A stretch of DNA of 57,514 nt, taken from contig CANOET010000003.1 of the NCBI GenBank assembly GCA_947564835.1, positions 1 through 57,514 of the forward strand, in the 5' to 3' direction. A program made the translations under genes and the position numbers. Source of the DNA: an uncultured Eubacterium sp. (lineage in GTDB: Bacteria > Bacillota > Clostridia > Lachnospirales > Lachnospiraceae). Positions 1 to 57,514 of this stretch are shown piece by piece. Position 1 is the first letter of the stretch, and every line of letters begins with the position of its first letter. The notes under the pieces are model-generated. The model saw only the letters and a list, made by a program, of their open reading frames with translations. It had not been told where the DNA came from and ran no database searches.

Positions 1-62
1 ACCAAAATTTCCCAAATGAAAACAACAATTTATTCACCGTTAAATGCACAACGCATTACTAG
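1..62. repeat. MITE-1 copy, right part (continues from 57419-57514 if circular)
   Basis: The stretch from TTATTCACCGTTAA to the CTAG at 59-62 is the right terminal repeat of a MITE-1 element. The matching left end is not in this part of the window but begins at 57419. The two pieces add up to about 158 bp, close to the usual 165 bp of the family. This is part of the evidence that the molecule is circular. Confidence 0.7.
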
Positions 63-223
63 TACTGCATTGTGCATTTAATGGTGAATACAATACCTGA
101 GTTTTGTGTCAACGTAAGGCGGAGGAAAGAAGCGATGTGGCCCCATCGCTGACTGACGACAACGCAATGCTGGCACAAAAGGCAGATGCTGTATTCACCG
201 TTAATTGCGCAATACAATACTAG
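59..223. repeat. MITE-1 copy
   Basis: Complete 165-bp element from CTAG (59-62) to CTAG (220-223). Its ends are imperfect inverted repeats: TACTGCATTGTGCA on the left, and on the right the reverse complement of a closely related sequence, followed by TTAA.GGTGAATAC on both sides. It shares the CTAG with the preceding copy, so the two are adjacent insertions. No coding capacity. TA/CTAG targeting is typical of IS630/Tc1-mariner transposases, which probably moved it in trans. Confidence 0.75.
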
Positions 224-1978: not shown

Positions 1979-2040
1979 ATGAGAAAAATGCCGTAAAATC
2001 AAGTATTTAAGAGCTTAAGAACTGAGAACTTGGCGGTTTT

Positions 2041-2150
2041 GATACGAGAAAATGGCAGTAAAGGTACGAGAAAACAGCGTTTAATATACGTGCAGATAGC
2101 GGTGGTGATAAGAAAAAACGGCTGTATAGATACGAGAAAATAGCTGTAGA
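2041..2150 (+). other. Replication origin core: five 22-bp iterons
   Basis: Five direct repeats start at 2041, 2063, 2085, 2107 and 2129, exactly 22 bp apart. They share the core TACGAGAAAATAGCTGT with variations; the third is the most diverged. Iterons of about 22 bp in strict phase are the classic binding array of Rep_3-family initiators, and such an initiator is encoded at 4355. An AT-rich stretch with a strong promoter follows (2160-2270) and could be the unwinding region. I saw no clear DnaA box. The origin assignment is inference from the pattern. Confidence 0.75.
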
Positions 2151-2175
2151 AAAGATGAGAGAAGAGAAAACAATA

Positions 2176-2204
2176 TTGACATATTCGTATCTTTTTATTA
2201 CAAT
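2176..2204 (+). promoter_or_regulatory. Strong sigma-A-type promoter beside the iterons
   Basis: TTGACA at 2176-2181, a 17-bp spacer, and TACAAT at 2199-2204. It reads right, away from the iterons. No gene starts in the next 2 kb; the expected transcript runs into two miniature elements and the second iteron array. Possible roles are a replication primer, an untranslated leader for rep, or a relic whose gene was destroyed by insertions. Confidence 0.55.
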
Positions 2205-2270
2205 GTAGATGAGCTTTTCAAAATTTTGATGATTCTTTGTTTTTATTTAGCATATAATATGATGGTTTTA

Positions 2271-2392
2271 CTAGTGCTGCATTGCATAAATAACGGTGAA
2301 TTAAACTGCAAGAGGTATTCCTGCATATGTCCATTTAAACGGATGTGTCGCAAGGTTATACTGTTCTATAAAACGGCGGATACTTTTTCTAG
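2271..2392. repeat. MITE-1-related element with a different interior
   Basis: Begins with the MITE-1 end CTAGTGCTGCATTGCATAAA, but the interior differs from ordinary MITE-1. It contains a small hairpin (GCAAGAGGTATTCCTGC) and CATTTAAACGGATGTG. The same interior occurs at 57450-57514, so this is a sub-family. The right end up to the CTAG at 2389 does not match the usual terminal repeat, so this copy is probably truncated by the next element. Confidence 0.55.
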
Positions 2393-2554
2393 TACTGCAT
2401 TGTGGAAATAACAGTGAATACAGCACCCGCTATTTGTGCCATCGCTACGTTGTCGTCAGTCAACGATGCACCCGGCATCGTCTCCTTCCTCACCCTTACG
2501 CTGACACAAATATCGAGCACTGTATTCACTGTTATTTCCACAATGCAGTACTAG
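2389..2554. repeat. MITE-1 copy, well preserved
   Basis: 166 bp from CTAG to CTAG. The left 50 bp (TACTGCATTGTGGAAATAAC, then AGTGAATACAG and CTATTTGTG) are closely mirrored at the right end, so the element is a long imperfect palindrome. Closest relatives in the window are at 27107-27272 and 28324-28439. Confidence 0.8.
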
Positions 2555-2718
2555 ATTTAAATGATGGATAAATAGATTTAAGATAAGAATGATTTGTTTT
2601 TTAGCGGGTTAAAGAGAAATTGCAGATATTTTTTGAGAATAAAGAAGAAAAATAACATATGCGATAAAAAAATAGACATAAATAGGTATATAGGAAAAGA
2701 AAACTGCCCGATTAAAAA

Positions 2719-4190
2719 AGCTAAGAGAACATGGCGGCAGATTATTTAGAAAGCTAAGAGAGAATAGCGGTAAATATCGTGATAAGGGAAGTTTTTTAGC
2801 TGTTGGAAGGTAAGAGAAATTAGCGGTAAATCTAAGCAAAAGACGGTTGTTTCTCATATTTGTATATTCCAAGCAAAAAAATAGAAAAAAACAGGATATA
2901 TCAGAAAAAGATAAGAGAAAATGGCTGTTTTTTTAGTTGATATAAAAGAAAAATATTAATAAATCAAAGGTAAGAGAAAATAGCTGGTTGATTTTATCAT
3001 GTGCCAAGAGAAAATAGCGATGAAATTCCCAGTAGAAATGGCAGAAGAACCTAAATATTAAAAATGCTAAGAGAAATTTGCTGTATAATTAGAAGTTTAT
3101 GAGACAGATATTAGAGAAAAATAGGTAAAAAGAGTGAAAATTATCAATTTATGAGTGATAAGCTAAGAGAAAATGGCTGTAAATATTCAGAAAAAAAAAA
3201 TAAATGCATGTTTTAGTTGTATAAATTAAAAAGCTAAGAGAAAATAGCTGTATAATATTTGAAAAGCTAAGAGAAAACAGCTGTGAAATCTTTAAAAAGC
3301 TAAGAGAGAATAGCTGTGAATTATCTGTAAGAGCTAAGAGAGAATAGCTGTGAATTATCTGTAAAAACTAAGAGAAAACAGCTGTGAAATCTTTTGCAGA
3401 AGATGAAATTTTTTTAAATTTAAAATATTTAGAAAAGCTAAGAGAAAATAGCTGTAATAAATGCAAAAAAATATGAAAACAGCTATGAAATAGCAGAAAA
3501 GCCAAGAGAGAATGGCTGCTAAATAGCAAAGTAAACTTTGTGTAAATAGTAGATGTATCATTCAGAACAGCTAAGAGAAAATGGCTGTTAAAAACCTAAG
3601 AAATTAAGGGCAAATAGTGATTAAATACGTGAAAATTTCAGCGACAGAAGCGTTTAAATATACGAAAAAAGAAAAAAGCTGCAATGAATTGGAATTGAAA
3701 AGCTAAAAGAAAAAGCGATCAAATGCTCCAAAAAGGTAAGAGAAAACAGCTGTATTATTTGCAAAAAGATACGGAAAACGCAGGTATCATTTACAAAGAA
3801 AGATACGAGAAAACGGCTGTAAAACGCACAAAGGAGGTTAAGAGAAAATGGCAGTAAAATTCACAAAAAAGATACGAGGAAACAGCGGTATCATTTAGAA
3901 AAAAGGTATGAGAAAACGGCCGTAGGATTGATAAGAAAGGTACGAGAAAACGGCCGTAGGATTGATAAGAAAGGTACGAGAAAACAGCTGTAGGATTGAT
4001 AAAAAATTACGGGAAAACAGATGTAGGATTGATAAAAAAGATACGAGAAAACGGCTGTAAGATTAATAAAAAAGATAAAAAAAGTTACAAGAAAAAGGTA
4101 GTGAAATTTCTTTAAAAGGTAAGAGAAAACAGCGGTATCCTTATCAGGAAAATTATTTTTGTAATAAAAGAAAAGATATGAAGTAACAGC
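2719..4190 (+). repeat. Dispersed iteron array (about 30 copies)
   Basis: The 22-bp iteron core recurs about 30 times in one orientation. Units starting near 3235, 3268, 3301, 3335 and 3369, and ten units from 3737 to 4042, are spaced 33-35 bp apart, about three helical turns. The left part favours GCTAAGAGAAAATAGCTGT and the right part GATACGAGAAAACGGCTGT. The array sits directly before the initiator gene. It most likely binds the same Rep protein, either for initiation or for copy-number control by titration and handcuffing. The minus-strand reading frames across it are low-complexity and are not genes. Apart from the miniature elements at 2271-2554, nothing else is seen between 2205 and 4354. 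Confidence 0.8.
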
Positions 4191-4354
4191 GGTAAAAATA
4201 TACAAAACAAGTAGCATATATGTAGAAAATAAAGAATGGCTGCAGATATAAAAAATAGAATAGGCGAAAACGAATGATATATATAAGTCGGAAAATTTAA
4301 AAAGAAATACGGATGCAATTAAAACATAAGTAGAAATGAAGGGCGGGAGAAATT

Positions 4355-5641
4355 ATGGCAAAAAAGTCTGAATCATCACAAAATGAAAAAAAGAAAGTAC
4401 GTAAAAAAGGTGGCAACGAGGTAGCTTTCCGGCCGCAGAGCATCGTTGAAGCAAGGTATAATCTGGATCGGAGACAAAATGATATTATGGATATTGCATT
4501 TGGGATGATTGATGATCAAGTGGATAAAAAGGAATATTCCATTCGGGTTGCAGATGTAAAGGAATATTACAATATCGAAGATAAATCGCATGCATATCGT
4601 TTTTTAAAACAGGCAGTAGAATCTTTGGAAGGCAAAGGATTTAAATTGAAAAAGGATGAGGATACGTCGATATTTTATCCATGGTTTTCTAAAATAACCT
4701 ACGTTAGGGCTAAAGACGAGGAAAACAGCCACATTGATTTTAAAATGGATGATGACTTGAAAAGGATGATTGTGGAATCCAGGCGTGGTGCATATTATTC
4801 CATCCGATATGCAATCAATCTGAGCAATAAGTATGCAAAACGGCTGTATTATTTATTTCAGGATCGGAAGAACTGGAACCAGAAGAATCCGGATATGGAG
4901 ACGGGGGTATTTACAATTGCAATTGAAGAATTGCTCAGGATGCTGGATTGCCCAAAGTCATACAAATATACAGATTTTAAACGCTACGTGATTAAACCGT
5001 CTATGGAGCAAATTAATGGCAGCACAGATATTTACTTTGAGTATGAAGAGAATAAAGGGAAATTAAGGTCCGGACAGAAAGGTGTATTGAGCCTTACATT
5101 TCATGTGACGCAGTTGAATCCAAATTCTAAAATAGTTGCGGATGCTGCATTTTATGAGATTACGAGTCAGCATGTAGAGATCCGTAAGAGGGGATATTTG
5201 GATGCTGAAGTTAGGGATATCCTTTCGATGGCTAAGAAACATGGGCGTGATGATACGTACATACAAGAAGCTTTGGATGTGGTTGACCATACCAAGTGTG
5301 ACAGTCGGGTGGGGCTGGCATGCTATTTTATGAAAAATGGTTATAATCAGATTTCTACGGAACGTCAGATAGAAAAAAAGAATTTGGAATCACCAGAACC
5401 AGTTTCTGCCTATTATGGATTCCATCAGCGTGATTATGATTATGATGAGCTTGAGAGAAATCTTTTGAATCAGGATGGAATTACAAAGGAGACGCACAGA
5501 GAGGAGATTGTCAAAGAGCCGGAATCTGCCGGAAAAAAAGAAATTACTGTAGAAGAATTGCAGAGTTTGATGGCTGGAAATCCGCAATTGCAGCAGGAAA
5601 TTGCCAGCTTATTACAAAAAATGAACGGTGAGGATAAATAA
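4355..5641 (+). CDS. Replication initiator protein, Rep_3 family
   Basis: 428 aa. Starts the replicon by binding iterons. The start is supported by GGGCGGGAG seven bases before the ATG. After a basic N-terminus (residues 1-25), residues about 28-255 fit the tandem winged-helix fold of Rep_3/RepB initiators: ARYNLDRRQNDIMDIAFGMI opens WH1, YYSIRYAINLSNKYAKRLYY lies mid-domain, and TDFKRYVIKPSMEQIN opens WH2. The C-terminal 170 residues are less conserved and end in a Glu/Gln-rich helix. The iteron array lies directly upstream, as usual for this family, and may also make the gene autoregulated. A perfect hairpin terminator follows. It is the only gene on the plus strand in this part apart from a small membrane protein. 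Confidence 0.88.
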   Translation: MAKKSESSQNEKKKVRKKGGNEVAFRPQSIVEARYNLDRRQNDIMDIAFGMIDDQVDKKEYSIRVADVKEYYNIEDKSHAYRFLKQAVESLEGKGFKLKKDEDTSIFYPWFSKITYVRAKDEENSHIDFKMDDDLKRMIVESRRGAYYSIRYAINLSNKYAKRLYYLFQDRKNWNQKNPDMETGVFTIAIEELLRMLDCPKSYKYTDFKRYVIKPSMEQINGSTDIYFEYEENKGKLRSGQKGVLSLTFHVTQLNPNSKIVADAAFYEITSQHVEIRKRGYLDAEVRDILSMAKKHGRDDTYIQEALDVVDHTKCDSRVGLACYFMKNGYNQISTERQIEKKNLESPEPVSAYYGFHQRDYDYDELERNLLNQDGITKETHREEIVKEPESAGKKEITVEELQSLMAGNPQLQQEIASLLQKMNGEDK

Positions 5642-25790: not shown

Positions 25791-26915
25791 TTACGGCATT
25801 CCTGGCAGATCCATGATAATCCTGCGCGCCAGTTCTTCTTCGACCGGAATAGCAAAAATACCTTCTTCATATTCTACAATTTTTCCGATTCCCTGTTGGA
25901 CAACAAAACGAAGCTTCCCATTTTTGACCTTTTTATCGGTATATAGTTTTTGAACAAGCTCTTCACGGTTGATATAGGATGGAACCGCTACGGGCAGATT
26001 TGCTTTTTTCAGCAGCCGGATCACAGCCTCCCGTTCGTTTTGGGTCATATAGCCCAGATAACAGGAAAGCGCTGTTTCAGCAACAAGGCCAATGGAAAGC
26101 GCTTCGCCGTGAAGCAGCTGGTAGTCGCTGACAGTCTCAATAGCACGTCCGACCGTATGGCCAAGATTTAAAATCTCGCGCAGCCCGCTTTCCCGTTCGT
26201 CTTTCATAACGACGGAATATTTGATCCGGCAGTTTTCCTGTGCGATATGTTTGCATACATCGGGATCAAATGTCAGGATTCTGTCCATATGCTTCTCCAG
26301 ATAATGAAAAAATCCCTGGTCTGCCAGACATGCATGCTTGATGGTTTCTGCCAGGCCGCTTGCAAGCTGGCGTGGCGGGAGCGTCTGCCAGGCTGCGATA
26401 TCCAGATATACTTTTTCCGGCTGGTTAAACAGTCCGATCAGGTTCGTCGCAAGCGGTGTATCGACAGCCGTTTTGCCGCCGACAGAAGCATCCGCAGCGG
26501 CAAGCAATGTCGTCGCATAATTGATAAATGGAACACCACGGCCATAGGTTCCAGCCACAAAGCCAGCCAGATCTGTGACAACACCGCCGCCAACAGCGAT
26601 AATACAGCAGTCTCTGCGGTATCCTTTTGCCAGCATGGCATCTTCCATATCCGCTTTTGTCTGACGCGTTTTGCTTTTTTCGCCGGCTTCGAACACAAAC
26701 AGGTCCGTCTGGTATCCTGCTTCATGGAGCAATTTTGCAAGATTTCCTGCATACAGGTCTTTTACGATACTGTCTGTGATAATGGCGAATTTTTGGATGT
26801 TTTTAACCAAACCGTTTTGGATATCACGGATCAGCGTGTGTTCCAGGTGATATCCGGTTTCGATCTCGTAGCTGTCGTCTACGGTTTTTTTTAACGTGAC
26901 ATGAAATGTACTCAT
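25791..26915 (-). CDS. aroB: 3-dehydroquinate synthase
   Basis: 374 aa from the ATG at 26913-26915, with AAAGGA nine bases upstream. Converts DAHP to 3-dehydroquinate, the second step of the shikimate pathway, using NAD and Zn. The NAD site is GGGVVTDLAGFVAGTYGRG; DASVGGKTAVDTPLATNLIG is the active-site loop; Zn ligands are Glu in SGLAETIKHA, His in ILNLGHTVGRAIE and His in LLHGEALSIG. All key residues are present, so it should be active. A deoxy-inosose synthase is less likely given the full DHQS signatures. No other shikimate gene is in the window. Confidence 0.92.
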   Translation of the reverse strand: MSTFHVTLKKTVDDSYEIETGYHLEHTLIRDIQNGLVKNIQKFAIITDSIVKDLYAGNLAKLLHEAGYQTDLFVFEAGEKSKTRQTKADMEDAMLAKGYRRDCCIIAVGGGVVTDLAGFVAGTYGRGVPFINYATTLLAAADASVGGKTAVDTPLATNLIGLFNQPEKVYLDIAAWQTLPPRQLASGLAETIKHACLADQGFFHYLEKHMDRILTFDPDVCKHIAQENCRIKYSVVMKDERESGLREILNLGHTVGRAIETVSDYQLLHGEALSIGLVAETALSCYLGYMTQNEREAVIRLLKKANLPVAVPSYINREELVQKLYTDKKVKNGKLRFVVQQGIGKIVEYEEGIFAIPVEEELARRIIMDLPGMP

Positions 26916-28162: not shown

Positions 28163-28327
28163 CTAAGCTCCATCCAGTCAGAAATTACAGTTTAGTGCAG
28201 CTTGATATGCATTAGTGAAAGGCACAATTTCCAAGGCGATGTGGATCCCATCAGCTAGAAACTATAACGCCACAATAGTGCGGGCTGATAGAGTGCAAGT
28301 GCTATTTCTAGCCGGATGGAGCACTAG
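28163..28327. repeat. MITE-2 copy
   Basis: 165 bp from CTAAGCTCCATCC to GGATGGAGCACTAG. It keeps an internal CTAG (CATCAGCTAGAAACT). The split copy at 57325/222 was broken at exactly this position, so this copy shows the pre-insertion state. The right-hand CTAG is shared with the following MITE-1 derivative. Confidence 0.75.
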
Positions 28328-28729: not shown

Positions 28730-28759
28730 ATATTTTCTTGCAAGATTTTATTCACATAA

Positions 28760-40326: not shown

Positions 40327-41178
40327 TTAATCTTTCTCATATGTTTCAAGAAAATGATGTCTTTTTCCATCTTTTTTGTAAGCGATAACTGTACTTAAAT
40401 TAACATTCTCAACACTTTTAAACAAATTGCTTTCTATATAAGGATTTGTTTTTTTTAATGACTGGATCAATTTTTTTATCTCCTGCCTTTTAGATGTCAT
40501 TTCACCTTCACTGCCCTTCTGGCATAAGTCCGTAAAATGGCAGGCACATTGTAAAAATTGAAGTCCATGGTAATCTCTCCAACGCCTAATATCATCTTCC
40601 CGCACAAGATATAAAGGGCGAATCAGTTCCATACCTTCAAAATTAGTACTATGAAGTTTTGGCATCATTGTCTGTACTTGTCCGCCATAAAGCATACCCA
40701 TCAAAATAGTCTCTATTACATCATCGTAATGATGTCCGAGCGCAATTTTATTACAGCCAAGTTCTCTTGCCTTACTATATAAATATCCCCGGCGCATCCG
40801 CGCACACAAATAACATGGGGATTTTTGAATCTGATCAACCACATCAAATATCTGCGTAGTAAAAATGGTCAAAGGAAGATTCATGATTTTTGCATTTTCT
40901 TCTATCCTTTTGCGATTTACTGTATGATATCCGGGATCCATTACAAGAAAAACCAGTTCAAACGGAAACTTCCGGTGTCTTTGTAATTCCTGAAAACACT
41001 TCGCCATCAACATGGAATCCTTTCCGCCTGAAATACAGACTGCCACCCGGTCCCCTTCTTGTAACAGCTTATAAGTACTGACTGCCTTTGCAAAGGGGCT
41101 GAAGATTGTTTTATGAAACTTTTTACGGATACTGAGTTCGATCTGCTGCGCAAGGCTGCTGCTCTGTGCAACTTTCAT
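40327..41178 (-). CDS. TtcA-like tRNA 2-thiolation protein (PP-loop ATPase)
   Basis: 283 aa from the ATG at 41176-41178 with GGAGG upstream. A PP-loop SGGKDS at residues 50-55 activates a tRNA base with ATP. The Fe-S/sulfur-carrying CYLC (Cys122, Cys125) and GHHYDDVIETILM follow, with a further Cys in QCACHFTDLC. This order is that of TtcA, which makes 2-thiocytidine at tRNA position 32; related TtcA/TtuA proteins of anaerobes may modify other bases. Its start lies inside the 3' end of hydE (56-bp overlap). Last gene of the run that begins upstream with gltX. Confidence 0.82.
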   Translation of the reverse strand: MKVAQSSSLAQQIELSIRKKFHKTIFSPFAKAVSTYKLLQEGDRVAVCISGGKDSMLMAKCFQELQRHRKFPFELVFLVMDPGYHTVNRKRIEENAKIMNLPLTIFTTQIFDVVDQIQKSPCYLCARMRRGYLYSKARELGCNKIALGHHYDDVIETILMGMLYGGQVQTMMPKLHSTNFEGMELIRPLYLVREDDIRRWRDYHGLQFLQCACHFTDLCQKGSEGEMTSKRQEIKKLIQSLKKTNPYIESNLFKSVENVNLSTVIAYKKDGKRHHFLETYEKD

Positions 41179-42310
41179 GAAAATCCTCCTTCTTTTTTTC
41201 CGAAATACAAGTCTGCATTTTGCTGTCACCGCGATCCATACACAGCTTATAGCCCAGCAGATGGATTCTTTCTGCAAGCTGCTGCCTTGCCTGAGCCGAT
41301 TCGCAGCCAGTATGGATTTTGTCATTATACAGAAGATATTTTCCCCGTACATTAACAGGTGACAAATTCGGCATAACTACATTTGCACCAGACAAAATCC
41401 CCATTTCCCGTCCCTGCGGATGGATCGTTCCTAATGCGGTTGTAGATGGCAGCAACACTTTGGGGAACATCAGCCGCAGAACAGACAATAACTTCCTAGT
41501 CATGGACAGTGTTCCGCTTGCCTTTCCTGCAAATGGAGTATCTTTTTGCGGGATAAATGGCCCAATTCCGATCATATGCGGCTGAAATTTTTCCAGAAAC
41601 CGCAAATCCTTAACTAATGTCTCAACTGTCTGCCCCGGCGAACCGACCATAAATCCAGCCCCAACTTGATAACCGGTCTCCTTTAACTGTTCCAGACAGT
41701 TCATACGATGAAAATAATTCATTTCATGTGGATGCAATCCCTGATAATGGATTTGGTCGGCCGTTTCATGTCGCAGCAGATAACGATCCGCGCCACAACG
41801 ATGCCAGTATTGATACGTATCATAATCCCATTCTCCAAAGGAAAGCGTAACCGCGCATTCTGGGTAGAATTTCTTAATCTGTGTAATAATATGCCCCAGT
41901 TTCTCTTTTGTATAATATATATCTTCCCCGCCCTGCAGGACAAAAGTACGAAACCCAAGCGCATAGCCTTCCTTTGCACAATTTATAATATCCTCTTCAG
42001 TCAGCCGGTACCGCTCTGCTTTACGGTTTTCCCTCCGTATGCCGCAATAATAGCAATTATTCCTGCAGTAATTCGTAAATTCAATCAGGCCGCGTGCATA
42101 TATGTTTTTCCCATAATGTATATCGCATACCTGCCTTGCATTTTGATATAAATATTCCAAAGATTCTTCTTCTTGCGTCTGCAAAATCTGCTGAAATTCA
42201 GCATCTGTCAATGTCTGGTTCCTCCGTAAACGATCTGTCAGACTGTTTGTCGTTCTTATTATGCTTTCCTGAGAACTTGCCATACAATTATGGGAATTAT
42301 TATTGATCAT
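41123..42310 (-). CDS. hydE: Radical SAM protein HydE ([FeFe]-hydrogenase maturase)
   Basis: 395 aa. HydE helps build the diiron H-cluster of [FeFe]-hydrogenase. The radical-SAM 4Fe-4S ligands are C-x3-C-x2-C in YCRNNCYYCG (Cys82, 86, 89), within the HydE/BioB-type sequence GLIEFTNYCRNNCYYCGIRR; then TFVLQGGEDIYYT and IGPFIPQKDTPFAG. The accessory C-terminal Cys cluster of some HydE proteins is not present (only Cys in KIHTGCESA). The last 18 codons overlap ttcA in another frame. AAAGGCAGG precedes the ATG. hydF, hydG and a hydrogenase gene are not in the window. Confidence 0.85.
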   Translation of the reverse strand: MINNNSHNCMASSQESIIRTTNSLTDRLRRNQTLTDAEFQQILQTQEEESLEYLYQNARQVCDIHYGKNIYARGLIEFTNYCRNNCYYCGIRRENRKAERYRLTEEDIINCAKEGYALGFRTFVLQGGEDIYYTKEKLGHIITQIKKFYPECAVTLSFGEWDYDTYQYWHRCGADRYLLRHETADQIHYQGLHPHEMNYFHRMNCLEQLKETGYQVGAGFMVGSPGQTVETLVKDLRFLEKFQPHMIGIGPFIPQKDTPFAGKASGTLSMTRKLLSVLRLMFPKVLLPSTTALGTIHPQGREMGILSGANVVMPNLSPVNVRGKYLLYNDKIHTGCESAQARQQLAERIHLLGYKLCMDRGDSKMQTCISEKKKEDFHESCTEQQPCAADRTQYP

Positions 42311-42337: not shown

Positions 42338-42934
42338 CTATCCTTCTTTCATCGTTCCTTTTTCTACATTCGCGTCAATCCAGTTTCTTTTTGCATAATC
42401 CCACAAATCCTTAGAGCCTTCAGCGGTATGCGCATTTCTTGCCAACACCTGTGACACTTTTACTTCATGTTCTATCCAGGATTTTCCATTTGTTGCATCA
42501 TTCAGCATCATTGGCTGAAGGTGGTCCATCGCTCTTGCAAATTTTGCTTCCGGCGTCTTCGCCTCTTCAAATTCCTCCCACAAAGCGCGCAGTTCCTGCT
42601 TCTGATCATCCGGAAGCAATCCATATATACGGTCTGCAGCACGCTCTTCCCGTTGACGCTGTGTCTTTTTTCCTATTTCATCATATGCATAAGTATCCCC
42701 CGCATCTATCTCGACTACATCATGCAGTAAAATCATAGAAACCGTTTTTAACACATCAATTTTTTCATTTGCATATTCATTTAACAGCACAGCCATCACC
42801 GCCGCATGCCAGGCATGTTCTGCATCGTTTTCCTTACGGGACGCATCCGAAATGTAGGTCTGGCGTCCAATCATTTTTTCCCTGTCAATTTCCCGTATAA
42901 AATCAAATTGTCTGTCCAATCGTTCCTGATTCAT
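42338..42934 (-). CDS. HD-domain hydrolase, YfbR-like 5'-nucleotidase group
   Basis: 198 aa from the ATG at 42932-42934 (AGGAGAA upstream). The metal-binding HD signature is present: His40 in NDAEHAWHAAV, His71-Asp72 in LLHDVVEIDAGDTYAYD, and a later Asp in FARAMDHLQPMM. This pattern matches YfbR/HDDC2-type 5'-deoxynucleotidases, which dephosphorylate deoxynucleoside monophosphates. It lies 39 bp after the CDF gene and 27 bp before hydE, so probably one transcript. Confidence 0.84.
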   Translation of the reverse strand: MNQERLDRQFDFIREIDREKMIGRQTYISDASRKENDAEHAWHAAVMAVLLNEYANEKIDVLKTVSMILLHDVVEIDAGDTYAYDEIGKKTQRQREERAADRIYGLLPDDQKQELRALWEEFEEAKTPEAKFARAMDHLQPMMLNDATNGKSWIEHEVKVSQVLARNAHTAEGSKDLWDYAKRNWIDANVEKGTMKEG

Positions 42935-46616: not shown

Positions 46617-48269
46617 TTACAGCTGCTCCAGAAAGTGATCCAGACGCCGTTGAACCGTCTCTTCACCAAGTACTTTCATAATCGTATACAGATCAGGCGA
46701 ATTTTTATGCCCGGTAACTGCAACCCGTACAATGGTACATAAATCTGAGATAGACCCCCGGTACGCCTCTGGATTCTTCTTATATTCTTTCATATTTGGA
46801 CAATATCCCATTGGTTCGCCTAAAGCTTTCATCTGTTCAAACCACTGGTCTGTATCCAAAAATAAATTCTTCTTATATGCGCAAACCGCTTCTCTTAATT
46901 GATCCTTGGTATATTTTTCGTCTATTTCATAAGTTACCGACTGTTCAAATTTTTCCTGTGGCTGATACAAGTAATCAAACATCTGTATTAAGTCGCTCCA
47001 TTTTGCTACATCTTTGCGTACTTTTTTTCCAGACATTTTCCATAGGCTAATCGTTTCCTGAAACTGTTCTTTATGCAAATCCGCAAACTGATACAGATCC
47101 GGTTCATATTCTTTTGCCCATGTCAGGATCTTACGCTCGCATTCTGCAATTGAAAAGCCCGCAATAATCTCTTTACTGACATTTTTCAGCTTTATCAAAT
47201 CAAATAATGCGCCGCTGACAGGCATTTTATGAAAAGATAATGAAAACTCTTCTTCTTTTTTATCTGGATTCTTCATATGCCATTCTTCATAATCAGAATT
47301 TGCAATCGTCAGCAGATATTCCCTGACACTTTCAACCGGAAATCCCTGTTCCAAATAATAACTGGCACCCGCTTCCGGATCTTTCCGCTTGCTCAGCTTT
47401 CGCTTTGCGGTACCATCCATCTTCATAATCGGAGAAATATGCAAAAAATCCGGTTCCTCAAAGCCACATAAATCAAACATCTGCTTATGAACCGGATAAG
47501 AGGCCATCCATTCATCTCCACGCACAACAAGGTTTGTCCGCATAAAATGATCATCCACAACGTGTGCAAAGTGATAGGTTGGAATACCATCTGATTTTAA
47601 CAGCACTATGTCCATCCGGTTCTCAGGCATTTCGATTTTTCCGCGTATCGGATCGGTATATACAATATGTTTTTCCTCTTTGCCGGGAGATTTTAAGCGA
47701 ACCACATACGGAACCCCCGCATCCACCTTCTCTTTTATTTGTTCATACGTCAGATTTCTGCAAGATGCATAGGCCCCGTAATAACCAATATCATCTTTTT
47801 TTTCTTCCTGCTCTTTCCGGACCTGTTCCAGTTCTTTGGCAGTGCAAAAACACGGATAAGCGAAACCTGCACGCATAAGTTCTTTTACGCAAATCTGGTA
47901 AATTTCTTTTCTTTCGCTTTGTTTATAGGGTCCATATCCTTTCTCACCGCCAGGAAACGGTCCTTCATCAAAGGCTATGGCATATCCTGCCAGGGACTGG
48001 ATAATTTCATCCACCCCACCTTCTAATTCCCGTTTTTTATCCGTATCTTCTATGCGAAGATAGAAAGCACCTCCGGTCTGACTGGCAAATCTACTGGAAA
48101 TCATGGCTGCATAAAGCCCTCCGATATGCATGTATCCGGTCGGGCTTGGTGCAAATCTAGTCACATAGGCGCCTTCTGGCAGATTACGCTTCGGAAAACG
48201 TACTTCCAATTCTGCCACAGTACCTGTCAAATTTGGAAAAATTAATTCAGCTAATTTATTCTGATCCAT
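46617..48269 (-). CDS. gltX: Glutamyl-tRNA synthetase
   Basis: 550 aa. Charges tRNA-Glu (and often tRNA-Gln, later amidated) with glutamate. HIGH-like motif in RFAPSPTGYMHIGGLYAA (His48-Gly50), IEDTDKKREL after it, and the KMSKS-like KRKLSKRKDP near residue 295; the C-terminal anticodon-binding helical region is full length. All class I signatures are intact. Length matches the longer clostridial type. gltX is normally essential and chromosomal, so here it is either a second copy or makes the replicon indispensable. A good promoter lies at 48312-48339. Confidence 0.94.
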   Translation of the reverse strand: MDQNKLAELIFPNLTGTVAELEVRFPKRNLPEGAYVTRFAPSPTGYMHIGGLYAAMISSRFASQTGGAFYLRIEDTDKKRELEGGVDEIIQSLAGYAIAFDEGPFPGGEKGYGPYKQSERKEIYQICVKELMRAGFAYPCFCTAKELEQVRKEQEEKKDDIGYYGAYASCRNLTYEQIKEKVDAGVPYVVRLKSPGKEEKHIVYTDPIRGKIEMPENRMDIVLLKSDGIPTYHFAHVVDDHFMRTNLVVRGDEWMASYPVHKQMFDLCGFEEPDFLHISPIMKMDGTAKRKLSKRKDPEAGASYYLEQGFPVESVREYLLTIANSDYEEWHMKNPDKKEEEFSLSFHKMPVSGALFDLIKLKNVSKEIIAGFSIAECERKILTWAKEYEPDLYQFADLHKEQFQETISLWKMSGKKVRKDVAKWSDLIQMFDYLYQPQEKFEQSVTYEIDEKYTKDQLREAVCAYKKNLFLDTDQWFEQMKALGEPMGYCPNMKEYKKNPEAYRGSISDLCTIVRVAVTGHKNSPDLYTIMKVLGEETVQRRLDHFLEQL

Positions 48270-54619: not shown

Positions 54620-54785
54620 CTAATACTCCGTCCGGTCAAAAATTGTACGTGTACTATGCATGATTCATGCCAGTACAAGGCAAAATATCGGCAGTAATGT
54701 AGATCCATCAACAAAAAATTATAACGCCGCAATAGTGCGCAGCAGACAGAGCACAAGTACAATTTCTGACCGGATGGAGCACTAG
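54620..54785. repeat. MITE-2 copy, diverged
   Basis: 166 bp from CTAATACTCCGTCCGG to CCGGATGGAGCACTAG. It belongs to the sub-group with AATTGTAC at the ends and is the best match for the split copy at 57325/222. Confidence 0.75.
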
Positions 54786-55109: not shown

Positions 55110-55934
55110 TTGGCCGATACAATCAGTATAAATAATTCAAAAGGTGGTGTAGCAAAATCTACATCCGTAATTACAATTTCACAAATACTTGCAATTGCAG
55201 GTTATAAAATTCTTATTATTGATCTTGATCCACAGATGAACACCACAAAAATGTATGGACAAGATGAAAATCCAGATGTAAATATTGAACATTTATTTTG
55301 CACAAAACAATTAAGGAAAACATCTGTAGAAGAATTTATTACCCCTACCATTCAGCCTGGTATTTCGATCATATCTGCAAGCAGAGATTACTATGAATTA
55401 ATATATAAAATTCATGCTGCAAATAAAGAATATCCCGTTGAATTGACATTTCGTAACAATCTTGAATACATTAAGGAAGATTACGACTACATTATTATTG
55501 ATAATTCCCCTTTTAAATCAGCTTTATCAAATTGTTCCCTTTGTGCCAGCGATGGGGTACTAACCCCTATAAATGCAGATAACTTTTCCTATGATGGTTT
55601 AATGGATTTGATCGAAACGATCCAGCACTTAAATGATACTTATTCCTTATCAATCAACTTCACTGGTATTTTTATGACAAGGGTATCCAGTCGTACTAAT
55701 TTGTTCAAACAAATGTTTGAAAGCTATGAAGAAATGTTTGAAGAAAAATTTATTCCAGTATCAATCCGGCAAACAGATGCTGTAAACCAAAGCAACACAT
55801 CGTTTATTCCTTTACTTACATACGACAAACGATGTACTGCTGCACAAGATTATATTGAACTTGTAAATTATCTTGGACTAATGGATAACAAACACTACAA
55901 AAAATTAGTCAAATATATGAAAGGAGAAAAATAA
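55110..55934 (+). CDS. parA: ParA partition ATPase
   Basis: 274 aa from a TTG start with AAAGGAG upstream. ParA dimerises with ATP on the nucleoid and moves the replicon together with ParB-centromere complexes. The deviant Walker A KGGVAKST (residues 11-18, signature Lys11) and Walker A' LIIDLDPQMN are clear; Walker B is YIIIDNSPF, where most ParA proteins have D-x-P-P. There is no N-terminal DNA-binding extension, so it is a short type-I ParA and autoregulation would fall to ParB or the promoter site. The stop overlaps the parB start by one base (TAATG). Confidence 0.9.
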   Translation: MADTISINNSKGGVAKSTSVITISQILAIAGYKILIIDLDPQMNTTKMYGQDENPDVNIEHLFCTKQLRKTSVEEFITPTIQPGISIISASRDYYELIYKIHAANKEYPVELTFRNNLEYIKEDYDYIIIDNSPFKSALSNCSLCASDGVLTPINADNFSYDGLMDLIETIQHLNDTYSLSINFTGIFMTRVSSRTNLFKQMFESYEEMFEEKFIPVSIRQTDAVNQSNTSFIPLLTYDKRCTAAQDYIELVNYLGLMDNKHYKKLVKYMKGEK

Positions 55935-57136
55935 TGGCTGCAAAAAAAATATTTAAGCCCGGACAAACTGCATCTGGGATTCTGAATACAAATGGCGGTG
56001 ACAGATTAAAACAAATGCAGGCAAACTCAAATTATAATTTTAAATTTATTCCAAAAGAAAAAATAACACCTAATGAAAAAAATAAAAATTATTCTCAAGA
56101 CAATATTGAAGCCCTCAGCGAATCAATTATTATAAACGGCCTTCGACACAACCTATCTGTTATACCAGACAGTGATACTGACATGTATCGGATTGTATCA
56201 GGAGAACGACGTTATCATGCCATTAATCTCATGGATGAAAAAACCTATAAAGAACTGTTTCCTACCGGTATTCCATGTAAAGTTGAAAAATCAAACATTT
56301 CAGAAATCGATGAAGAAATCATGTTAATTTCCGCCAATCATGATATTCGTGAAACCTCCGTTGAAGAGAAACGCTGGGAGATACGCAGACTAAAAGAACT
56401 GTATGAAGCAAAAAAGTTAAGTGGTGAAATAACAAACATTTCAAAAGAAATTGCTAAACAATTAAATATTTCCCAAAGACAAGCTATCAAATATGTAAAT
56501 GCAGAAAAACTGATTCCAGAACTAAGTGATCTTCTGAATCAAAATGGTATTAGTTTGGAAGATGCTAACAAATTCAGCCGTCTGGATGAATGGGCTCAGC
56601 TCAAAATTGTGGAACTGTTAAGCGCAAAAGGAAGTGTCAATGCTGAAGAACTAGAAAGCATAAAAAAATTTTCACAAGAAAAAGAACTTGAAAGCAAAAG
56701 AAATCACCAGGAATTAGAACGTACTTTACAAATGCTCTCTGAGCGTGATAAAAGCATAGAAGCGTTGGAGCGCAGAATTGAATCTCTTCAAAACAACACT
56801 CCAGAAAATCAACAAAACGATTTAAAAGAAGAATTACAATACATAGCAAATGCAAAAGAAAAAGCTGAACGCGAAAAACAGCGATTGGAAAATCAATTGG
56901 AGAAAATGAAACTTCAACAAAAAGAACGGGAAGCCAGGAATACATCTATTTCTGACAACGAACTGAGACGAATCTCTCAAATAGCAAAAACAGAACAAGC
57001 ATTAAAGCTATTTGAAACCAATTTTTCCACATTGAAATCAAACAAAGGTTTGATTAAAACCGATCCAGATTTAAAAACGCGACTTGAAATATTAAATGAA
57101 CGCATTTCGGATTTACTTAAAGAATTAAATAGTTAA
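55934..57136 (+). CDS. parB: ParB centromere-binding protein
   Basis: 400 aa. The N-terminal ParB/sulfiredoxin-like CTP-binding domain (about 35-135) has IVSGERRYHAI with GERR at residues 90-93, the CTP box. A helix-turn-helix (about 169-189, ISKEIAKQLNISQRQAIKYV) should bind the centromere. Residues about 240-335 form a long charged coiled coil, unusually long for ParB, before a short C-terminal dimer domain. Coupled to parA through TAATG. The TGAAGTACTTCA palindromes upstream of parA are its likely binding sites (inference). Confidence 0.88.
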   Translation: MAAKKIFKPGQTASGILNTNGGDRLKQMQANSNYNFKFIPKEKITPNEKNKNYSQDNIEALSESIIINGLRHNLSVIPDSDTDMYRIVSGERRYHAINLMDEKTYKELFPTGIPCKVEKSNISEIDEEIMLISANHDIRETSVEEKRWEIRRLKELYEAKKLSGEITNISKEIAKQLNISQRQAIKYVNAEKLIPELSDLLNQNGISLEDANKFSRLDEWAQLKIVELLSAKGSVNAEELESIKKFSQEKELESKRNHQELERTLQMLSERDKSIEALERRIESLQNNTPENQQNDLKEELQYIANAKEKAEREKQRLENQLEKMKLQQKEREARNTSISDNELRRISQIAKTEQALKLFETNFSTLKSNKGLIKTDPDLKTRLEILNERISDLLKELNS

Positions 57137-57324: not shown

Positions 57325-57418
57325 AGCGCTATATGATCAGAACTTGTACTTCTACTTATACTCGTGTTTTACATAATTCGTGTCAGTGCATGGCATAATT
57401 TCAACGACAATGGTTCCA
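57325..57418. repeat. MITE-2 copy, left half (right half at 222-294)
   Basis: Left terminal repeat GCGCTATATGATCAGAACTTGTACTT matches the right terminal repeat at 265-294 read in reverse, and CGTGTCAGTGCATGGCATAATTT matches the MITE-2 interior. It ends at GGTTCCA, where a MITE-1 has inserted. Together with 222-294 it rebuilds one 165-bp element across the window boundary. Confidence 0.7.
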
Positions 57419-57514
57419 CTAGTACTGCATTGCATAAATAACAGTAAATTAAACTGCAGGAGGTATTCCTGCATATGTCCATTTAAACGGATGTGCCGCA
57501 AGGTTATACTGTTC
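57419..57514. repeat. MITE-1-related copy, left part (continues at 1-62)
   Basis: Begins CTAGTACTGCATTGCATAAA. The interior, with the hairpin GCAGGAGGTATTCCTGC and CATTTAAACGGATGTG, is shared with 2271-2392. The right end is missing at the window edge and is supplied by positions 1-62 if the molecule is a circle. Confidence 0.65.

Follow-up and report, generated by a model that had tools for sequence, protein, structure and literature searches.

Small secondary replicons with plasmid-type maintenance have been described among the rumen Lachnospiraceae in Butyrivibrio and Pseudobutyrivibrio. BhuII (91,776 bp, listed as circular) and then PxyII (88,942 bp) were each called the smallest chromid reported, according to the accessible parts of the two articles (PMC5716241, PMC7523725). 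For the altered Schaedler flora (ASF), the accessible part of PMC9600240 states that there was no evidence of plasmids in the genomes and gives the chromosome of ASF492 as 6 contigs. We analysed contig C3, whose entire 57,514 bp are called the window below; it belongs to an assembly that is 92.26% complete and comprises 385 contigs totalling 4,119,001 bases. This contig is most likely a small circular secondary replicon from a gut-dwelling relative of Eubacterium plexicaudatum. With a probability of about 0.9, we read it as a linearised circle of about 58.7 kb with Rep_3/iteron replication and ParAB partition, opened inside an IS630-like transposon. A 57.5-kb contig of a fragmented assembly would then be, in effect, a whole replicon.

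The junction, where the two contig ends would meet, lies between iterons and a Rep_3 gene on one side and parAB on the other. The Rep_3-family replication initiator is encoded at 4355-5641 (+ strand; Pfam Rep3_N, 1.1e-20, and Rep3_C, 1.2e-15). Upstream of it, at 2032-4194 (+), we found an array of 18 copies of a 24-nt iteron family plus variants and other repeats. Iterons upstream of rep are the usual anatomy of Rep_3 iteron origins, and the array is likely to be the replication origin, judging by its sequence. The iteron pattern matches 22 times in the window, on one strand, and not at all in six 20-kb control pieces of the same genome. Matches also occur in the parB-rep interval of four relatives (6 in G002, 11 in G004, 9 in G011 and 4 in G003), with two stray matches elsewhere in G003 and one in G009:C50, and none in G008:C31. 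Near 2270-2555, between the repeats at 2148 and 2716, the array of the window is interrupted by the left end of an insertion sequence (IS) followed by a miniature element, MITE-1. The ParA partition ATPase (55110-55934, +; AAA_31, 7.7e-39) and the ParB-like partition protein (55934-57136, +; ParB_N, 4.2e-6) are encoded at the opposite end. When Rep was compared with PLSDB, identities were only 22-31% among the matches listed (20 of 177 records).

Between the initiator and parAB, our own gene list has 34 further genes, most of them named by eye. Among those tested, gltX, nrdD, hydE, larC and the genes for nicotinate phosphoribosyltransferase and polyphosphate:AMP phosphotransferase score above the NCBIfam cut-offs. 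Scans of the window with Rfam (gathering threshold) and for tRNAs gave no matches. Within 40327-42310, the open reading frames of HydE and of a TtcA-like protein (so named by eye) run in the same direction and share 230 bases; the true TtcA-like start is probably further in than that of the open reading frame.

A ParB search of 61 genomes gave matches in 19 at an E-value of 0.001. Eight are strong (E <1e-130): G000, which is the genome under study, and G002, G003, G004, G008, G009 and G011 belong to the genus, while G020 is outside it. The window was aligned with the ParB-bearing contigs and later with others, and contigs spanning the junction were found in six genomes of the same genus. Three of these contigs are circularly permuted versions of the window, opened at three points that differ from its own. 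G002:C4 follows the window from 13574 up to 57128, continues for 2.1 kb and then resumes from 4346 on to 13152. G004:C28 starts at window position 26915 and ends at 28739, with 6.9 kb from rep to parAB; its sole run of N (42417-42606) lies away from the junction. The ends of G010:C18 correspond to 19869 (start) and 24846 (end), leaving some 5 kb of the window (19.9-24.8 kb) uncovered, and this contig crosses the junction with a different rep/par module. The fourth contig, G003:C6 of E. plexicaudatum ASF492 (NZ_AQFT02000006.1; 77,782 bp), goes more than once round: its first 12.4 kb are repeated at its end with 97.5-99% identity (L069-L072), and from this terminal direct repeat the circle would measure about 65.4 kb. 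It starts about 0.5 kb past parB and also spans the rep-parB interval (9.4 kb) internally. G011:C51 and G008:C31 span the junction as well, the latter without rep beside parB. G009:C50 ends 1.8 kb beyond parB and speaks neither for nor against a circle, and in G020 the match was confined to parA-parB within the 35 kb compared.

Three permutations and one overlap are hard to explain other than by a circle, which these alignments strongly support. It is only through the contigs of relatives that circularity is seen; the window itself has no exact terminal overlap of 8-399 bases. At an E-value of 1e-3, none of the four repeat elements of the window was found in the junction intervals of G002, G003 and G004. 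These intervals, being free of the repeats, support the circle and not the nested set of insertions described below.

The module of G010 comprises another Rep_3 gene, another ParA gene and an adjoining gene that looks ParB-like by eye. The replication and partition module thus seems to have been exchanged in G010 on the same gene backbone. It was located at L176 14773-15972 and 19146-19922, and on to G010:C18 20883. At positions 697-1547 the window resembles, with 78% identity, part of the corresponding module gap of G010:C18; by eye, this segment is probably a decayed transposase remnant and not a gene of the replicon.

The ends of the window carry the two halves of one miniature element, MITE-2, as the initial annotation had proposed. 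An nhmmer model was built from two intact copies in the window (28164 and 54621) and searched against 321,680 bases, consisting of the window and 32 pieces of its own genome, 20 of which had been chosen for related repeats and hence form a non-random sample. The left half (57325-57419, +, from nhmmer and alignment) is interrupted at its central CTAG and gives a weak match, model 15-80 of 167 at 57335-57412 (E 1.1e-4). The right half (223-295, +) matches model 93-166 of 167 (E 3.5e-8). Both halves are thus on the same strand and cover complementary parts of the model. We aligned the rebuilt element with the copies at 54620-54785 and 28163-28327, and obtained scores of 51 and 32, against at most 10.5 for 100 shuffles of the rebuilt sequence; the left half scored 16 and the right half 36.5, compared without shuffles of their own. 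A CTAG at the break point is present in the copy at 28163-28327, in agreement with the annotation, and absent from that at 54620-54785.

MITE-2 is about 165 bp long, has short inverted ends and is multi-copy. Five unbroken copies were found in the bases searched, including the two seeds: four in the window (28164, 51556, 53455 and 54621) and one in C118. Three copies are partial, namely the two window halves (57335-57412 and 223-295) and one in C323 (model 8-54). MITE-2 is dense on the replicon, whose 57.5 kb hold four unbroken copies besides the split one, versus one unbroken copy in 264 kb of the other pieces, which are a non-random sample. The reasoning from the split MITE-2 stands, and the two halves remain a good clue to the circle.

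The sequence between the halves turned out to differ from the initial description, in which a 158-bp MITE-1 (57419-57514 plus 1-62) spanned the boundary and the nested set demanded that base 57514 be joined to base 1. The last 93 bases of the window (57422-57514, +), where the contig is broken, are 82% identical to the left end of an element at locus L092 of G003, and its first 59 bases (1-59, +) match the right end of that element at about 76% identity. This full-length relative copy (L092, 1504-2885) is 1,382 bp long and flanked by TA. Counterparts of both window pieces bound the element in G003 (loci L092 and L090), and its transposase, in two reading frames, matches DDE_3 (PF13358, 7.7e-21) and HTH_32 (1e-12). 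With the transposase type seen in the relative's copy, a TA duplication and inverted ends, we take the boundary transposon to belong to the IS630 family, on the strength of DDE_3 and TA. The two window pieces are most likely a full-size IS630-like transposon minus its middle, and copies sharing the left piece run into the transposon interior, which removes the MITE-1 across the boundary and, with it, the demand for a direct join. Judged by the 1,382-bp element in the relative, some 1.23 kb of interior would be lacking between 57514 and 1, and the circle would measure about 58.7 kb rather than the 57.5 kb of the annotation, whose proposal of a whole circular replicon is otherwise upheld by the contigs of relatives that cross the junction. 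The contig ends therefore seem to belong together, yet with about 1.2 kb of unassembled transposon between them and not by direct joining.

Among the copies of the left piece in this genome (all candidate copies scored), those in C136, C2, C6 and at C3:2270 continue into the transposon interior, and those in C39, C118 and C258 stop before it. The copy in C136 extends to position 161, and the copies in C2 and at C3:2271 to position 129. The longest exact window suffix is the last 55 bases in both C136 and C2 and 46 bases in C6, and no suffix of at least 20 bases is found at C3:2270; the contig stops exactly 55 bases past its last private variant. Nine other contigs begin or end in the same element, five on its left side (C6, C39, C118, C136 and C258) and four on its right side (C2, C55, C88 and C147), the latter breaking within or just past the right piece (1-59). 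On the start side, inspection by eye puts the first mismatch against C55, C147 and C2 at position 56, close to the element's outer end. The first 55 bases are shared in full with none of the other contigs; the longest common stretches span 38-47 bases, since C55, C147 and C2 start later and an inner base is different in two of them. The 55-base pattern agrees with a k=55 de Bruijn assembly halted at a collapsed repeat. When the full IS of the relative was used as query (40 of 62 candidates scored), no complete copy was found in this assembly, only ends and, in C48 and C191, two short matches to its interior. Pattern searches beyond the contig ends led to 4 places from the left piece and 1 from the right, and none of them yielded the whole interior.

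A complete MITE-1 of 159 bp with inverted ends lies beside the transposon at 62-220 (+), as the initial annotation had placed it near the start of the window. It is repeated many times in the genome, the fuller copies being about 77-90% identical, and like MITE-2 it is a short multi-copy element. The dinucleotide TA occurs at 57420-57421, to the left of the nested insert, at 60-61, between IS and MITE-1, and at 221-222, to the right of the insert. These three steps, read as target duplications, fit two successive insertions into the single TA of the CTAG of MITE-2. The IS630-like transposon would have jumped into this CTAG and MITE-1 would have inserted beside it at the same TA, the order of insertions being our reconstruction. 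Confronted with several near-identical transposon copies, the short-read assembler would then have gone about 55 bases into the common sequence from either side before stopping, and would have dropped the middle. The contig ends would in this way fall between the replication module, in which the Rep_3 initiator presumably acts on the iteron array as origin, and the partition module, with segregation presumably carried out by ParAB.

We examined whether the replicon carries genes that the cell may need. Its gltX gene, for glutamyl-tRNA synthetase (46617-48269, - strand), reaches 306 bits with TIGR00464, above the cut-off, and is the only such match above cut-off in this incomplete assembly. The only other TIGR00464 match, on C172, is a glutaminyl-tRNA synthetase (GlnRS; 708 bits to TIGR00440). 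The control for this search matched in all 14 genomes, in 10 of them above the cut-off; of the 13 genomes of the genus, 7 exceeded the cut-off. The gltX ortholog is present in 8 of these 13: in G000, in six others at 74-82% identity, and in G003, where the match is in pieces because of several stops in the sequence. In none of the eight does a second glutamyl-tRNA synthetase (GluRS) rise above the GlnRS score level; the second-best matches reach 90-100 bits, that of G000 alone having been compared with the GlnRS model. The 6.35-Mb contig of ASF492 contains a GlnRS-type match only. Six of the eight orthologs share their contig with a rep or par module; the other two, G011:C63 and G012:C70, have the gene order of the replicon without rep or par. 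G008 carries only a 42-45% identical GluRS, on a 219-kb contig. Matches in G005, G006 and G007 do not exceed the GlnRS level and G001 has none, so that 4 of the 13 genomes lack a GluRS match above the GlnRS-type level. A replicon fragment was found in G006 (C126). The replicon may have been lost in binning from these four genomes.

We then considered whether the replicon can be called a chromid. It has plasmid-type replication and partition (Rep_3, iterons, ParAB), and it is conserved across the genus, where gene order is kept and the gltX ortholog occurs in 8, a strong ParB in 7 and the Rep ortholog in 5 of 13 genomes; the absences may reflect loss or binning. As to core genes, gltX is the sole copy by sequence in an incomplete assembly. 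The nrdD gene was considered as a second sole gene and rejected, as a 54% paralog lies in C19; G010 is without the replicon nrdD. The G+C content of the window is 0.397, and 0.418 in its gene-rich part (5.9-50.5 kb). Twelve pieces of the same genome, assumed to be chromosomal, average about 0.443 (range 0.363-0.499): the gene-rich part falls about 2.5 points short of this mean and the whole window 4.6 points, both within the range of the 12 pieces. In ASF492, C6 has a G+C content of 0.356 versus 0.403-0.548 in eight pieces of C1, nearly 10 points lower. Dinucleotide distances are 52-58 between the window and pieces of its own genome versus 45 (sd 17) among these pieces, and 54-55 versus 58 in ASF492. 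Because of the nrdD paralog elsewhere and the lower G+C, we call the replicon only chromid-like, on grounds of sequence.

The reading of a circle opened inside a transposon has to be weighed against other explanations of the same ends. If bases 57514 and 1 were joined directly, the boundary element would be a 152-bp MITE with an internal deletion; the two pieces do have matching inverted ends, and their summed length is near that of MITE-1. We rejected this joint, which was found in no other copy, the copies in C136, C2 and at C3:2271 continuing instead into the transposon interior. The stop exactly 55 bases after the last private variant also speaks against it, as does the smaller chance of a contig breaking at a direct, unique joint, and we regard direct joining as improbable. 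Still less probable is that the window is a linear piece of chromosome ending at two copies of one transposon, its Rep and ParAB derived from an integrated plasmid. Breaks in a multi-copy transposon are indeed normal, as the nine other contigs illustrate, and most of the genes tested are chromosome-like. However, three relatives have permutations with an intact junction, a fourth shows the 12.4-kb terminal overlap in a 6-contig isolate assembly, and chance alone would hardly place matching halves of MITE-2 at the two ends. For the genus, this reading is largely refuted.

A circle opened inside a transposon might still be an ordinary dispensable plasmid, its single gltX being an artefact of the incomplete assembly (92.26%). 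G008, with its distant GluRS on a large contig, would agree with this, as would the second nrdD copy in this genome, the missing replicon nrdD in G010, and a G+C content below the mean of the other pieces and, in ASF492, below all eight. Against it stand the ortholog in 8 of 13 genomes, none of which has a second GluRS above the GlnRS level, the GlnRS-type match as the only one in the 6.35-Mb contig of ASF492, and the gene order kept across the genus. We consider dispensability unlikely. We give somewhat better than even odds to the genus keeping an obligatory circular replicon of about 57-65 kb, with its sole GluRS, about 34 largely shared genes and an exchangeable rep/par module, as in G010. 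The cell would then depend on the replicon through its only gltX. If the replicon indeed carries the only gltX, the cell cannot do without a secondary replicon of very small size, and an essential gene goes missing from metagenome bins that leave it out. An obligatory replicon would also lie unnoticed in ASF492, a strain of the altered Schaedler mouse flora, and the minimum size of an obligatory secondary replicon would become testable in a cultured strain.

Finally, we compared the replicon with known systems. Among openly accessible papers on chromids, plasmids or gltX in Lachnospiraceae, E. eligens or ASF492, we found no published title that describes it. The transposon resembles IS630-family transposons and their derived MITEs in its DDE_3 transposase, TA flanks and short inverted ends, with the difference that the interior of the window's own copy lies outside the contig. 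The closest counterpart is NZ_AQFT02000006.1 of ASF492, which has the same gene order (40,768 of the 46,155 bases of window 4346-50500 aligned) and rep and parAB flanking the same junction. It differs in its size, about 65.4 kb, and no MITE-2, MITE-1 or IS ends were found in its junction interval. The terminal overlap of this sixth contig speaks against the plasmid-free statement in the accessible part of PMC9600240. In [Eubacterium] eligens NC_012780.1 (626,744 bp), ParA (65% identity), ParB (56.6% over 100%), a DUF4317 gene (46%) and gltX (46%) lie within 41 kb; this replicon is about ten times larger, and few other window genes were matched in the 82 kb compared. BhuII and PxyII are likened to ours by description and not by homology; they are larger, and carbohydrate genes are stressed in what is accessible of their descriptions. 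The 72-kb replicon of Dinoroseobacter shibae is likewise a small one that is called a chromid, but it is curable and belongs to an unrelated bacterium, according to the accessible part of PMC4373377. By the sizes given in the accessible parts of these publications, and with pYEE4 of Paracoccus yeei (a 'smallest chromid') outside the comparison, the replicon described here is smaller than the chromids compared.
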